A stretch of DNA of 64,000 nt from Methylophaga sp. (GTDB lineage Bacteria > Pseudomonadota > Gammaproteobacteria > Nitrosococcales > Methylophagaceae), in contig NVWQ02000006.1 in the NCBI GenBank assembly GCA_002733715.2, positions 1 through 64,000 on the forward strand, read 5' to 3'. The translations under genes and the position numbers were made by a program. The notes beneath the pieces were generated by a model. That model saw only the letters and a program-made list of their open reading frames with translations. It had not been told where the DNA came from and ran no database searches. Shown here one piece after another: positions 14,125-46,853 of the stretch. Position 1 is the first letter of the stretch. Each line of letters begins with the position of its first letter.

Positions 14125-14769
14125 GTGAAAAATATAATTCTTAGCTTATGCATACTGTTTTTAACTGCTTGTGCAGCATCATCTGCTCATCAACCTATTG
14201 AGCCTATCAGGAAACTAGATGATATAAAGCGCCTTACTGATTATGTAAGCACACCTTTTATCGGTGAGCCAAGCCCTGAAAATTATTCTATTTGCCATAA
14301 TAATGGCTGCGCTGAATTTTCATTTATCAGCTTAACGTCTCAACAATGGCCTAGTGTTGAAGCATTATTTTTACCCATTGCTAGCAATGCACAGCAAGAA
14401 CGCGAGCAAATTAAATCCGCGATTGCTTTATTAGAGTTCTATAGCGGCGCGCAATCTACAACATATAAGGATCAAGCTGAAAACTCACTTGCCGTAGGCC
14501 GAGAAGGTCAATTAGATTGTATTGATGAAGCCACCAATTCAACAGTGTATCTACGTATGATTGCAAATGCAGGTTTACTAAAATTCCATCAACAATCATC
14601 ACGCACTTCACGTGGTGGATTTATCATCCCCCACAACACCGCCACAATTATTGAGATAGAATCAAAACAACGTTATGCCGTTGATTCATGGTTTGAAGCT
14701 AATGGAGAGCCGCCTCATATCGTGACACTTAAAGCATGGAAAAAAGGCTGGAAACCTGAAAATGATTAA
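14125..14769 (+). CDS. Predicted lipoprotein of unknown function
   Basis: A 214-residue protein starting with GTG 14125, 12 bases after rdgB. The N-terminus ends in LFLTACAASS, a clear lipobox with Cys16. The mature part contains YSICHNNGCAEFSFISLTSQ and EGQLDCIDEATNSTVYLRMI; the two Cys in the first motif and the one in GQLDCIDEA could form a disulfide or bind a ligand. I do not recognise a named domain. It sits between rdgB and hemW but is separated from hemW by repeat sequence, so functional linkage is doubtful. Confidence 0.75.
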   Translation: MKNIILSLCILFLTACAASSAHQPIEPIRKLDDIKRLTDYVSTPFIGEPSPENYSICHNNGCAEFSFISLTSQQWPSVEALFLPIASNAQQEREQIKSAIALLEFYSGAQSTTYKDQAENSLAVGREGQLDCIDEATNSTVYLRMIANAGLLKFHQQSSRTSRGGFIIPHNTATIIEIESKQRYAVDSWFEANGEPPHIVTLKAWKKGWKPEND

Positions 14770-14834
14770 TCCTCGCCCCGTTATCCCCGAGATCTTACCC
14801 AGTCAAGCTGAGCATAAGCCTATCGAGGGATCTA
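14770..14834 (-). repeat. Decayed inverted REP-like copy
   Basis: Read on the minus strand: AGATCCCTCGATAGGCTTAT ... AGATCTCGGGGATAACGG. It keeps the AGATCCC edge and GGGGATAACG tail of the family but has diverged. It precedes the direct copy at 14875. Confidence 0.4.
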
Positions 14835-14874
14835 TTTTGTTATCCTCCACTAGTCACATGGATATTGCCAGTAC

Positions 14875-14912
14875 TCATAGATTCCCGCTAAAAATATGCG
14901 AGAATGACAATG
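14875..14912 (+). repeat. REP-like palindrome running into the hemW start
   Basis: CATAGATTCCCGCTAAAAAT then ATGCGAGAATGACAATG. The left arm equals the copy at 31563; the right arm has GCGAGAATGACA for GCGGGAATGACG. The last ATG is the hemW start at 14910. Confidence 0.7.
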
Positions 14913-16076
14913 CTTGATTTCAAAGCATTACCCCCGCTCAGCTTATACATCCATGTGCCTTGGTGCGTGCGTAAATGTCCATATTGCGATTTCAACTCAC
15001 ATAAGTCACCTGACAACTTACCAGAGCAAGCCTATATCGATGCGCTGATCCGAGATTTAGAACAAGAAATTCCTCATATATGGGGGCGAACGGTTCAAAC
15101 TATATTTATAGGCGGCGGCACACCCAGTCTTTTTTCGGCTGAAGCCTATGACCGACTATTCTCCTCAATTCGCGCCTTATTACCACTAAGCCCACAGGTT
15201 GAAATAACCTTAGAAGCCAACCCCGGCACATTTGAAGCGCAGCGCTTTGCTGATTATTTAGATTTAGGTATTAATCGTTTATCGATTGGTGTACAGAGTT
15301 TTAATGACCAGTCACTCACCGCATTAGGACGAATTCACGATAGCAAACAAGCTATAAAGGCTATTGAAACAGCGCATAAAGCCGGCTTTGAGAATTTCAA
15401 TCTAGATTTAATGTTTGGCCTGCCTCATCAAACTGAGAAAGCAGCTCACAATGATGTCGCCACGGCCATAGCACTAGAGCCGAGCCACATATCGTATTAT
15501 CAACTAACACTCGAGCCCAACACCTTATTTTATCAACAGCCTCCAACTTTGCCAGATGAAGACCCAATAATAGATTGGCAAATAGCAAATCAACAACGCC
15601 TAGCTGATGCGGGTTATCAACAATATGAAGTATCCGCCTACGCCAAAAAGAACAAACAATGTCAGCACAATCTAAACTATTGGCACTTTGGCGACTACAT
15701 CGGCATTGGTGCCGGTGCACATAGCAAAATAAGTGATGCCGCCAAGCAAGCCATCACCCGCCGTTCAAAACAAAAACAGCCGCAAACTTATATGGATAAT
15801 GCCGGTTCACCTACCGTAATCTTAACGGAAGAAACAATTGCCGAATCTGACTTAGGTTTTGAATTTATGCTCAATGCATTACGGTTAACCGATGGTTTTC
15901 CCACATCTCTATTTTATCAACATGCAGGATTACCAATCTCACATATCAACTCAGCATTACAACAAGCCGAACAATTAGGCCTAATAACGCACGATATTCA
16001 CAGAATACAACCTACCGAAAAAGGCCAACGTTACCTTAATAGCCTGGTAGAGTTATTTTTACCCGTATCTCATTAA
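14910..16076 (+). CDS. hemW: Radical SAM heme chaperone HemW
   Basis: Carries heme to respiratory proteins (formerly called oxygen-independent coproporphyrinogen oxidase-like). The 388-residue protein begins MLDFKALPPLSLYIHVPWC; the radical SAM cluster motif is CVRKCPYCDFNSH (CxxxCxxC). GGGTPSLFS, RLSIGVQSFND and LMFGLPHQT are typical. The C-terminal winged region ends the protein. I choose ATG 14910 over 14904: GAGA lies 6 bases upstream and family members start at this point. The start codon and ribosome site are part of a REP-like repeat. Confidence 0.93.
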   Translation: MLDFKALPPLSLYIHVPWCVRKCPYCDFNSHKSPDNLPEQAYIDALIRDLEQEIPHIWGRTVQTIFIGGGTPSLFSAEAYDRLFSSIRALLPLSPQVEITLEANPGTFEAQRFADYLDLGINRLSIGVQSFNDQSLTALGRIHDSKQAIKAIETAHKAGFENFNLDLMFGLPHQTEKAAHNDVATAIALEPSHISYYQLTLEPNTLFYQQPPTLPDEDPIIDWQIANQQRLADAGYQQYEVSAYAKKNKQCQHNLNYWHFGDYIGIGAGAHSKISDAAKQAITRRSKQKQPQTYMDNAGSPTVILTEETIAESDLGFEFMLNALRLTDGFPTSLFYQHAGLPISHINSALQQAEQLGLITHDIHRIQPTEKGQRYLNSLVELFLPVSH

Positions 16077-29967: not shown

Positions 29968-29985
29968 GCAAGTTCCTTAACTTGC
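29968..29985 (-). terminator. Hairpin just after the lysS stop
   Basis: GCAAGTT and AACTTGC pair perfectly around a 4-base loop, starting at the lysS stop codon. No T-run follows on the minus strand, so it is either a weak terminator or a transcript-stabilising stem. Confidence 0.35.
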
Positions 29986-31478
29986 TATTCAGGCCGCATA
30001 TGCGGAAACAATAATACATCTCTAATTGATGGAGAATCTGTTAACAACATCACTAAACGGTCGATACCAATGCCCTCACCCGCTGTCGGCGGCATTCCAT
30101 ATTCTAATGCTCGAATATAATCATCATCAAAATGCATGGCTTCATCATCACCGGCATCTTTTTCTGCTACTTGCGCTTGGAAGCGCTCTGCCTGATCTTC
30201 TGCATCATTTAACTCAGAAAAACCATTAGCAATTTCACGGCCGCCAACAAAGAACTCAAAACGGTCGGTTACAAACGGATCATCATCACTACGACGTGCT
30301 AGCGGTGAAACTTCAGTTGGATAAGCGGTAATAAATGTTGGCTCCATCAAACGATGCTCAACTGTTTTTTCAAATATTTCGATTTGAATTTTACCTAAAC
30401 CATAACTATCTTTTAGTGGAATACCTAAACCTTGAGCAATTTTTGTTGCCTCTTCTAATGTCGATAATTGTTCAACAGAAATCTCAGGATTAAAATGTAA
30501 AACTGATTCAATAATCGTCATACGATGAAACGGTTTAGCAAAATCTAAATCCGTTCCTTGATAATGCACTTGTGATGTACCCAATACATCTTGTGTGACA
30601 GTGCGTAGCATTTCTTCAGTTAGATCCATCAAATCTTTATAATCAGCATAGGCTTGATAAAATTCAACCATAGTGAATTCTGGATTATGGCGTGTTGATA
30701 AACCTTCATTACGGAAATTACGATTGATTTCGAATACACGTTCAAACCCGCCCACAACAAGACGTTTTAAATATAACTCAGGAGCAACACGCAAAAATAG
30801 CGGCATATCTAACGCATTGTGATGCGTTGTAAAAGGTCTCGCAGTCGCTCCACCCGGAATCACATGCATCATCGGGGTTTCAACTTCCAGATAGTTTTTT
30901 GCCATCAAGAAACGACGAATACCATCAATCACTTTGGTGCGAATAATAAAGGTCTCACGACTCACTTCATTCATAATCAAGTCAACATAACGTTGGCGAT
31001 AACGTGTTTCTTGATCGGACAAACCGTGGAATTTTTCAGGTAATGGACGTAATGATTTTGTTAATAATCGAATATCATCGACTATCACTGATAATTCACC
31101 TTTTTGAGTGCGGAACATCACACCTTCAGCCGCAATAATATCGCCTAAATCCCAGCGTTTAAAATCAGCATAAACACCTTCAGCTAAATCATCACGCTTC
31201 ACATAAAGCTGCATATTGCCTGACATATCACGGATATTAGCAAAGCTAGCTTTACCCATCACTCGCTTAGTCATCAATCGACCTGCAATTTTAACGCGGC
31301 GCGGCGACTCTTTTAACTCTTCTGCTGACGTATTTTCATATTCAACTGCTAATTCAGCATTCATCACATCACGACGAAAATCATTCGGGAAGGCATTGCC
31401 CTTCTCCCGTAACTCCGCCAGCTTTTCACGGCGTAGCGCGATTAATCTATTTTCATCTTGTTGTATTTCGTTTGTCAT
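29985..31478 (-). CDS. lysS: Lysyl-tRNA synthetase LysS
   Basis: Class II aminoacyl-tRNA synthetase, 497 residues from ATG 31478 ([20 protein letters not shown]), which has GGAAAG at the right distance; the frame extends to 31505 but without family similarity. N-terminal OB fold: [20 protein letters not shown]. Class II motifs: [15 protein letters not shown] (1), [22 protein letters not shown] split as [16 protein letters not shown] (2) and [13 protein letters not shown] (3). It lies downstream of prfB in the same direction, the usual prfB-lysS order, with a repeat pair between. Confidence 0.96.
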
Positions 31479-31499
31479 ATTCTTTCCGTTTATTTTTAT

Positions 31500-31555
31500 C
31501 GTCATTGATCCTACGGTTACTTCGTTTCGGTAGGCTTTTTAGCCGGAATCTAGTG
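31500..31555 (-). repeat. Extended REP-like repeat, inverted copy
   Basis: Minus strand: AGATTCCGGCTAAAAAGCCT ... CCGTAGGATCAATGACG. It shares about 50 bases with the copy at 58334-58383, including AACCG(T/A)AGGATCAATGACG. The edge AGATTCC(C/G)GCTAAAA is common to the short copies. Confidence 0.7.
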
Positions 31556-31562
31556 TTCAAAG

Positions 31563-31595
31563 CATAGATTCCCGCTAAAACATGCGGGAATGACG
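31563..31595 (+). repeat. REP-like palindrome, best-preserved copy
   Basis: CATAGATTCCCGCTAAAACA then TGCGGGAATGACG. The stem ATTCCCGC/GCGGGAAT is perfect around TAAAACAT. It forms a pair with the inverted extended copy before it, between prfB and lysS. Confidence 0.8.
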
Positions 31596-31623: not shown

Positions 31624-32722
31624 CTAAAGCCCTGACTTTAGGGAGGCCTCTATAAATAAATGCAAATCACCATCTAAAACAGCTTGTGTATTGCCTGTTT
31701 CTACATTGGTGCGTAAATCTTTGATACGTGATTGATCTAATACATAAGAGCGAATTTGACTGCCCCAACCAATGTCTGCTTTACCATCTTCGGCTAATTG
31801 TTTTTCTTCATTCTGTTTGAGCAATTCTAACTCATACAGCTTCGCTTTCAACAAACTCATCGCTGTATCTCTATTTTTATGCTGAGAACGTTGCGATTGG
31901 CATTGTACAACCGTATTGGTCGGTAAATGGGTAATACGCACAGCAGAGTCTGTTTTATTGATATGCTGACCACCAGCACCACTGGCATGATAGGTATCGA
32001 CGCGTAAATCTGCCTTATTGATTTCAATATCAATATCATCATTCACTTCGGGATAAACAAATACACTACAAAATGAAGTGTGGCGTTTTGAATTAGAATC
32101 AAATGGTGATTTTCGTACTAAGCGATGCACACCTGTTTCCGTGCGTAACAATCCAAAAGCATATTCACCTTCAAAATGAATGGTTGCGCTTTTAATACCG
32201 GCAACCTCACCCGATGATGCTTCGACTAAATCGACCTTAAAGCCTTGCGCCTCGCCCCAGCGTAAATACATACGTAACACCATATTGGCCCAGTCTTGCG
32301 CTTCTGTACCGCCCGATCCAGATTGAATATCAAGATAGGCGTTATTTGCATCCATCTTGCCAGAAAACATACGTTGAAACTCAAGTTTCTCTAACGCTGT
32401 TTCTAATTCTGTTAAATCGGATTGCACCGCATCAAAGGTTTCTTGATCTTGTTCTTCGACCGCCATTTCAAGCAGATCTTTCGCGTCATCTAACGTTTCA
32501 CTATGATTAGATAAAGTCGTAACAATACGCTCTAAACTAACCCGTTCTTTGCCAAGCTGTTGAGCACGCTCAGGATCATCCCATACCGCCGGTGATTCTA
32601 ATTCACGTGTAACTTCTACTAATTGTTCAGCCTTAATATCATAGTCAAAGGTACCCCCTAAGATCGTCGCTACGACCTCGAAGTTCTTTTATTTTCTGTA
32701 TTGTTGCACCTAATTCCAACAC
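31624..32722 (-). CDS. prfB: Peptide chain release factor 2 with programmed +1 frameshift
   Basis: Recognises UGA/UAA stop codons. Translation starts at GTG 32722 (25 codons: [20 protein letters not shown]...), meets an in-frame TGA at 32645-32647 within CTTTGAC, shifts +1 and continues in the second frame from 32646 to 31624, giving 365 residues, the same length as E. coli RF2. The anticodon-like SPF is in [12 protein letters not shown] and the catalytic GGQ in [15 protein letters not shown]. Because of the shift, simple frame finding shows only the piece starting at 32466. A ribosome site AGGTTA lies before GTG. Confidence 0.94.
32644..32659 (-). other. prfB: RF2 autoregulatory frameshift site
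   Basis: Minus strand AGGGGGTACCTTTGAC: a Shine-Dalgarno-like AGGGGG, a short spacer, then the slippery CTT followed by the weak stop TGA-C. When RF2 is scarce the ribosome pauses and slips +1. Only the codon TAC instead of the common TAT differs from the E. coli site. Confidence 0.93.
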
Positions 32723-42034: not shown

Positions 42035-42162
42035 AATCTCTCTCCAAACATATTATTCTTATAATTTTGACCCACAAAAATAACACGCTTATTAGTTAAC
42101 TTCAATGCAATAGATCGTTTTTCATACTTTTAATGAACACTAAAATCAACGCTTAAAGTTAG

Positions 42163-46666: not shown

Positions 46667-46737
46667 TTTGTCTATTGTGAAGTGCGAGATGATTATATAA
46701 TCATCAATAACGTAAGATCATAGCATTAAAAAATAGG

Positions 46738-46832
46738 TTGCTAGGGTTCCGGTTAGTTAAGAGCTAACGTCTGGTCCGAGAGTCACCGACCTTCACAGTG
46801 AAGGTTACACGGAGGGATAAAAGCCCGGGAGA
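46738..46832 (+). promoter_or_regulatory. Guanidine-I (ykkC) riboswitch aptamer
   Basis: Conserved blocks appear in order: CTAGGGTTCCGG, a short hairpin (GTTAG...CTAAC), TGGTCCGAGAG, a perfect variable hairpin CCTTCACAGTGAAGG (46790-46804), ACACGGAGGGATAAAAGCCC and GGGAGA. These are the signature segments of the ykkC class I aptamer, which binds free guanidinium. The genes downstream are exactly those of guanidine uptake and degradation, which fits an ON switch. Confidence 0.95.
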
Positions 46833-46853
46833 TTGTTTGTATAAACATCTCTC
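46828..46853 (+). promoter_or_regulatory. Hairpin in the riboswitch expression platform
   Basis: GAGAT-GTTT pairs with AAAC-ATCTC (one bulged T) around a GTAT loop. Its left arm shares GGGAGA with the 3' end of the aptamer, so ligand binding and this hairpin should exclude each other. No T-run follows; the start codon of the first gene lies 36 bases later behind GGAG. Confidence 0.5.

Follow-up and report, generated by a model that had tools for sequence, protein, structure and literature searches.

Does the REP-like repeat that ends immediately in front of hemW supply this gene with its start codon and ribosome site, or was it inserted beside a start that hemW already possessed? The question is raised by a window of 64,000 nucleotides from Methylophaga sp. 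(contig NVWQ02000006.1, positions 1 to 64,000), the whole stretch of DNA analysed here. The ORF list and a family profile search give the gene row rph, rdgB, a small lipoprotein-like gene and hemW. The identity of HemW is firm (TIGR00539, 381.8 bits against a cut-off of 205.4). At E 0.001 neither Pfam nor NCBIfam gave a match for the small gene, which is read as lipoprotein-like from its N-terminus. Its stop codon is separated by 140 nt from the hemW ATG at 14910, and a consensus scan found no promoter in 14600-15000. Elsewhere in the window, a guanidine-I riboswitch occupies 46730-46833 (97.8 bits), and the ORFs downstream of it are read as an operon encoding an ABC transporter and urea-carboxylase-like proteins.

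The gap between the small gene and hemW is occupied, at 14777-14909, by a head-to-head pair of CGTC-tagged REP palindromes (Table 1). The tag of the left REP, CGTT, stands at 14779-14782; the right REP reads ATTCCCGC-TAAAAATAT-GCGAGAATGA at 14881-14907, followed by CA and then by ATG 14910, and its stem contains one C.A mismatch as RNA. The preliminary description had a right arm followed by ATG, with GAGA six bases ahead of ATG 14910, and the sequence is as described. It had also called the element REP-like, which the copy number bears out, though the repeat is larger than was thought, as it includes the left partner: exact matches to the right-arm pattern number 41 in the 2.83-Mb genome that holds the window (G000; other G numbers are relatives), against none for the reversed control pattern. 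Across the genus, 119 copies occur in 12 of 29 genomes (41 in G000 and 78 in 11 others), and 37 of the 41 G000 copies lie outside mechanically called ORFs. The left part, 14777-14834, is itself repeated: G000, G017, G008, G023 and G028 contain matches of 78-92% that extend over some 48-66 nt. Its alignment to each of three short-loop left REPs was equalled by 0 of 1000 shuffles. Another REP of this kind is found in the window at 31568-31595, between the ORFs 29985-31505 and 31624-32466; it has the GCGGGA that is usual for the family.

Table 1. Features of the small gene-hemW junction (window positions)
Feature	Position	Strand	Description
Upstream small gene	14125..14769	+	ORF; stop TAA 14767-14769
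Inferred insertion, about 138 bp	14772..14909	+	Flanked by TTAATC and the native ATG; left edge deduced by comparison with G024 (TTAATC-ATG) and others
Left REP, long-loop type	14777..14834	+	Related copies in G017, G008, G023 and G028
Linker joining both REPs	14835..14880	+	Mostly absent in G017
Right REP	14881..14909	+	Stem ATTCCCGC / GCGAGAAT, 9-nt loop, tag GACA (TGTC on the other strand)
GAGA, weak Shine-Dalgarno-like match	14900..14903	+	6 nt before ATG 14910
Repeat-borne in-frame ATG	14904..14906	+	Possible 2-residue N-terminal extension (MT)
hemW from native start	14910..16076	+	Profile match and comparison of relatives

CGTC-tagged REPs carry the tag CGTC or TGTC and 8-9-bp stems starting with AT, mostly form head-to-head dimers and sit near the 3' end of the upstream gene; their CGTC-1 family takes in neisserial dRS3 and Rickettsia RPE-6 (Di Nocera 2013, PMC3733652). 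The element at hemW is likewise a head-to-head dimer close to the stop of an upstream co-directional gene, with mostly intergenic copies. Its right REP ends in GACA, the permitted TGTC of the other strand, and has an 8-bp stem with AT first, apart from the single mismatch. The short-loop copies in G000, with their 4-nt loop and CCA-type tail, fit CGTC-1. The hemW copy, however, has a 9-nt instead of a 4-nt loop and a long-loop partner, its tail is CTA (TAG before the stem) as against CCA (TGG) in most of the short-loop copies listed, and its tag end touches the start codon, whereas PMC3733652 gives varying distances to downstream genes. Because loop length and tail differ, the hemW copy belongs, on its sequence characters, to the CGTC-tagged REP superfamily and not to CGTC-1. 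The inverted REP doublet that forms the repeated unit at hemW also resembles REPINs, which are REP doublets linked to RAYT transposases (Bertels and Rainey 2011, PMC3116915). The profile search gave one Y1 transposase match (PF01797) in the G000 genome, and the 2-kb locus around this sole match contains no REP pattern.

Whether the start codon came with the repeat is decided by the comparison of relatives for which the preliminary description had called, most of those examined being without the repeat. Some match to hemW was found in 56 of 59 relatives, a few of them only to HemN-like paralogues; the set analysed comprises 31 genomes, namely the 30 best hemW loci, including G000, together with G017, and partial and more distant matches fall outside it. 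In 31 of 31 genomes a start codon stands at the position of ATG 14910 (ATG in 30, GTG in G013). In the set without G000 and G017, the upstream stop lies no more than 12 nt from hemW in 25 of 29 loci, overlapping the start in five of the 25, G023 included; it is 31-37 nt away in the remaining four. The gene preceding hemW is read as rdgB instead of the small gene in some relatives, so the ancestral neighbour differs between genomes. Since the relatives share the start codon and most of them a near or overlapping upstream stop, ATG 14910 is, by this comparison, hemW's own start, and the proposal that the repeat donates it is not supported. By the same comparison, the insertion altered the 5' sequence and the distance to the upstream stop, and added the in-frame ATG 14904. 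The suggestion that the insertion replaced the translation signal thus survives in part: about 20 nt before hemW are now repeat-derived, but the start codon is native.

The longest hemW ORF begins at the repeat's own ATG 14904, upstream of ATG 14910, and among the 31 genomes an ATG six bases before the hemW start occurs only in G000 and G017. The repeat might therefore donate the start after all, with translation from 14904, an MT- extension and the native ATG internal. We regard this as unlikely. The frame is indeed open from 14904, G017 has its ATG at the same place (MAMLDF), and 3 of 41 copies (those at hemW, kdtA and lolC/E) have an arm ATG that shares its frame with a long ORF downstream; however, GAGA touches 14904 and leaves no room for a Shine-Dalgarno sequence, 14904 lies partly within the hairpin stem, the apparent native starts of kdtA and lolC/E are conserved 27-30 nt downstream, and an in-frame arm ATG is expected by chance in about one case in three when no stop intervenes. 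Hence ATG 14910 is retained as the probable start.

Start donation was also considered at other copies. For kdtA/waaA (L010 1501-1552), the arm ATG lies in frame 27 nt upstream of the apparent start TTG, which is present in all 26 loci listed; automatic annotation may add 9 residues here. At a lolC/lolE-type permease gene (L145 1475-1525, minus strand), the arm ATG opens a 10-residue in-frame extension before a conserved ATG 30 nt downstream, found in 17 loci listed from 27 genomes with any match. As both genes have apparent conserved downstream starts, the repeat does not seem to have given either gene its start. In the 29 genus genomes, just one further arm runs directly into an ATG (G023:C80), where an 8-codon ORF opens; a thrC-like start, the gene being named from the window's copy of thrC, lies 22 nt after that arm.

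Known repeats do provide coding signals. The ends of GTAG REPs supply stop codons, and REPs have been noted at ORF amino-termini, where translation may begin downstream (PMC3733652). Pneumococcal BOX repeats supply the starts of expressed ORFs (Croucher 2011, PMC3049150). BOX is similar to the present element as a small interspersed repeat able to carry a start codon, but there the start of the new ORF lies within BOX, whereas hemW retains its native start.

The ribosome site is a different matter from the start codon. The anti-Shine-Dalgarno match before ATG 14910 amounts to -3.0 kcal/mol, a value that 23% of 2000 random window sites reach and that is close to the median (-3.1 kcal/mol) for a selection of 31 starts out of the ORF list. 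In relatives without the repeat the match ranges from +1.7 to -6.5, and G000 does no better than many of them. The A in GCGAGA had been thought to improve the site, yet it weakens the binding, as the family GCGGGA would give -4.3 kcal/mol at hemW, and the A variant is common, occurring in 10 of 41 G000 copies and 24 of 119 genus copies. The A also breaks one pair of the RNA hairpin, which is thereby predicted at -5.8 instead of -12.7 kcal/mol with the family G, and lowers the cost of opening the hemW start to 12.8 from 19.7 kcal/mol. Even so lowered, the start of G000 is the second most structured of the 31, at 12.8 against a median of 4.55 for the other 30, with only G017 higher; because the start is so structured, the insertion may impair initiation. 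On balance, these predictions suggest that the insertion is tolerated and that the arm is at best a weak putative ribosome site. A separate 7-bp hairpin that pairs the start codon is predicted in AATGCTTGATTTCAAAGCATT (14909-14929), which spans the hemW start and has the same letters in G023.

The idea that the A reflects selection, also raised in the preliminary description, was followed across the repeat copies. Gene starts were called mechanically, an open frame being 100 open codons, or at least 60 at the end of a stretch; the 15-nt limit was set beforehand and the 25-nt limit was not. Among the G000 copies, A is present in 4 of 5 within 15 nt of a start and in 6 of 36 elsewhere, and genus-wide 10 of 24 A-copies lie no more than 25 nt upstream of an open frame's ATG, as against 8 of 95 G-copies. 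For the 78 copies from 11 other genomes, the proportions near a start are 2 of 14 (A) and 1 of 64 (G) at 15 nt (p 0.08), and 5 of 14 and 3 of 64 at 25 nt (p 0.004). In a control with gene 3' ends, copies were merged into locus clusters and nearness to a start and to an end was kept exclusive, 7 of the 119 copies having had both. By cluster, the association with starts holds at 15 nt (A 5/20, G 2/80, p 0.003), 25 nt (6/20, 8/80, p 0.03) and 40 nt (9/20, 13/80, p 0.009); that with convergent gene ends is present at 15 nt (7/20, 7/80, p 0.0065) and fades at 25 nt (7/20, 15/80, p 0.11) and 40 nt (8/20, 24/80, p 0.27). At short range, A-copies thus sit near gene edges generally. Since A is enriched near gene 3' ends too, a selective effect specific to starts is possible, not established. 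It is improbable that the A was selected for weakening the hairpin over the hemW start: the weaker hairpin, the lower opening cost, the excess of A-copies upstream of open-frame ATGs and the more persistent link to starts speak for it, but A-clusters are also enriched near convergent gene ends at 15 nt, the preset limit gives p 0.08 in the 11 other genomes, and the gene starts were called mechanically.

Two close relatives provide a view of the history of the insertion. In the hemW tree, G000 and G023 form a pair (99/97) inside a clade with G017 and G013 (100/99). G013 is without the insertion, and its order relative to G017 is not settled in this tree. G017 HemW is 92% identical to that of G000 over residues 1-251 and 85% over 252-387. 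Its stop-hemW gap measures 89 nt, of which the first 75 nt or so align with the window's spacer, and AAGCGACAATGGCA before its ATG matches the window's tag arm at 10 of 12 positions; the left arm of the palindrome and most of the linker are gone, and GAGA is not kept (GCGACA). Taken alone, this spacer could not be identified as a REP, since 66-156 of 1000 shuffles do as well against the three left REPs, so its link to the repeat comes from the alignment with the window. Within its coding region, G017 hemW (G017:C36, about 42080-42151, minus strand) contains an in-frame insert of about 72 nt (24 residues), at whose edges lies an inverted repeat that includes AATTAAAGGGTAGCGTCCCC. With up to one mismatch, this 20-mer occurs in 9 of 29 genus genomes, nine times in G017 itself, and this recurrence indicates that a second repeat family entered the hemW coding region there.

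The hemW of G023 is 94% identical to that of G000, but only AAGTCCCCGAGAACGACTA stands before its ATG, and the upstream stop overlaps the start (TAATG). The junction TCCCCGAGAACGACTAATG fits a deletion between CGAGA in the left REP and CGAGA in the right arm, with a score of 10.5 that 5 of 1000 shuffles equal, against a best value of 9.0 among the unrelated genomes. On this modest evidence, G023 likely represents an insertion collapsed by deletion. Most simply, an ancestor common to G000, G017 and G023 would have received the insertion once, and it would have decayed in G017 and collapsed in G023 afterwards. That the spacer is instead ancestral and was deleted in most relatives is very improbable: REPs can be deleted, and G023 may exemplify such a loss, but the near or touching stop-start arrangement of the 25 other loci is spread across the tree, and many parallel losses would be needed.

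The following course of events is envisaged. Before the insertion, hemW was probably translated by ribosomes re-initiating after the adjacent upstream stop, as stop and start adjoin or overlap in most relatives examined. A head-to-head CGTC-tagged REP dimer would then have entered the junction of small gene and hemW, probably before the G000 species and its near relatives G017 and G023 separated, landing with its tag end touching hemW's own ATG. With the stop now 140 nt away, ribosomes would load on the right-arm sequence, with the at best weak GAGA, and start at ATG 14910. Decay in G017 and collapse through a deletion in G023 seem to have followed, the latter bringing stop and start back into overlap. 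Taken as a whole, this account of a dimer inserted at a native start, with a repeat-derived flank, a shared origin and later decay or collapse, is probable. For G000 it is shown that the repeat was inserted, that the start is native and that the flank derives from the repeat; the origin shared with relatives, their collapse and a role of the arm in ribosome loading are proposed.

The insertion may instead act chiefly on the upstream gene, its hairpin stalling ribosomes and lowering expression of that gene, with hemW a bystander. In E. coli, ribosomes are reported to stall, and expression to fall, where a REP hairpin lies no more than 15 nt from a stop codon (Liang 2015, cited in PMC12306157), and the tag of the left REP at hemW begins 9 nt after the upstream stop, inside this 15-nt rule; the rule, as cited there, comes from E. 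coli and from other REPs. By this analogy the alternative deserves consideration, but it is rather doubtful, and the account given above is preferred.

A second junction of the same kind is found at dusB (DusB, TIGR00737; PrmA, TIGR00406; both profile matches), for which 27 of 28 genomes with a match were compared, the partial G022 being dropped. In 9 of the 27 the codon aligned to the first DusB residue is not a start codon, and dusB therefore begins elsewhere there. In G000 and G028 a REP dimer separates the upstream stop from dusB by 109 and 106 nt, respectively, with the tag end 4 nt before the start. In 13 of the remaining 16 genomes no more than 12 nt separate the upstream stop from the dusB start, and in 9 of these 13 the two overlap; the gene upstream of dusB looks different in G023. 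There is no REP dimer at dusB in G017 or in G008, the sister of G028, and the matching spacing in G000 and G028 could stem from one event with losses or transfer, or from two events at one site. The opening cost of the dusB start is unremarkable: G000 has 7.3 and G028 has 12.2, against a median of 9.05 for the 26 genomes other than G000.

The hemW insertion is a neat case of a known kind of insertion and ordinary REP biology, not a new mechanism. Among the open-licence PMC papers listed by a search, none reports in its title or opening abstract a REP takeover of a conserved gene's ribosome site, which is weak evidence. As a speculation that we hold to be fairly unlikely, REP dimers would be portable spacers that cut translational coupling at touching stop-start junctions while bringing a ready GGGA or GAGA and an ATG on the tag arm, so that the downstream gene is still expressed, and whose later collapse re-couples the genes via repeat-derived sequence; if this were true, hemW and dusB would be two examples. 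Annotation is affected as well: with the longest ORF beginning at an ATG of the repeat, starts called automatically at such sites may be wrong by a few codons. More broadly, hemW offers an ordered series of one REP insertion at a stop-start junction, from empty through full to probably decayed and probably collapsed, and shows that repeat DNA can replace the very sequence on which ribosomes land, even in a gene that is widely conserved.
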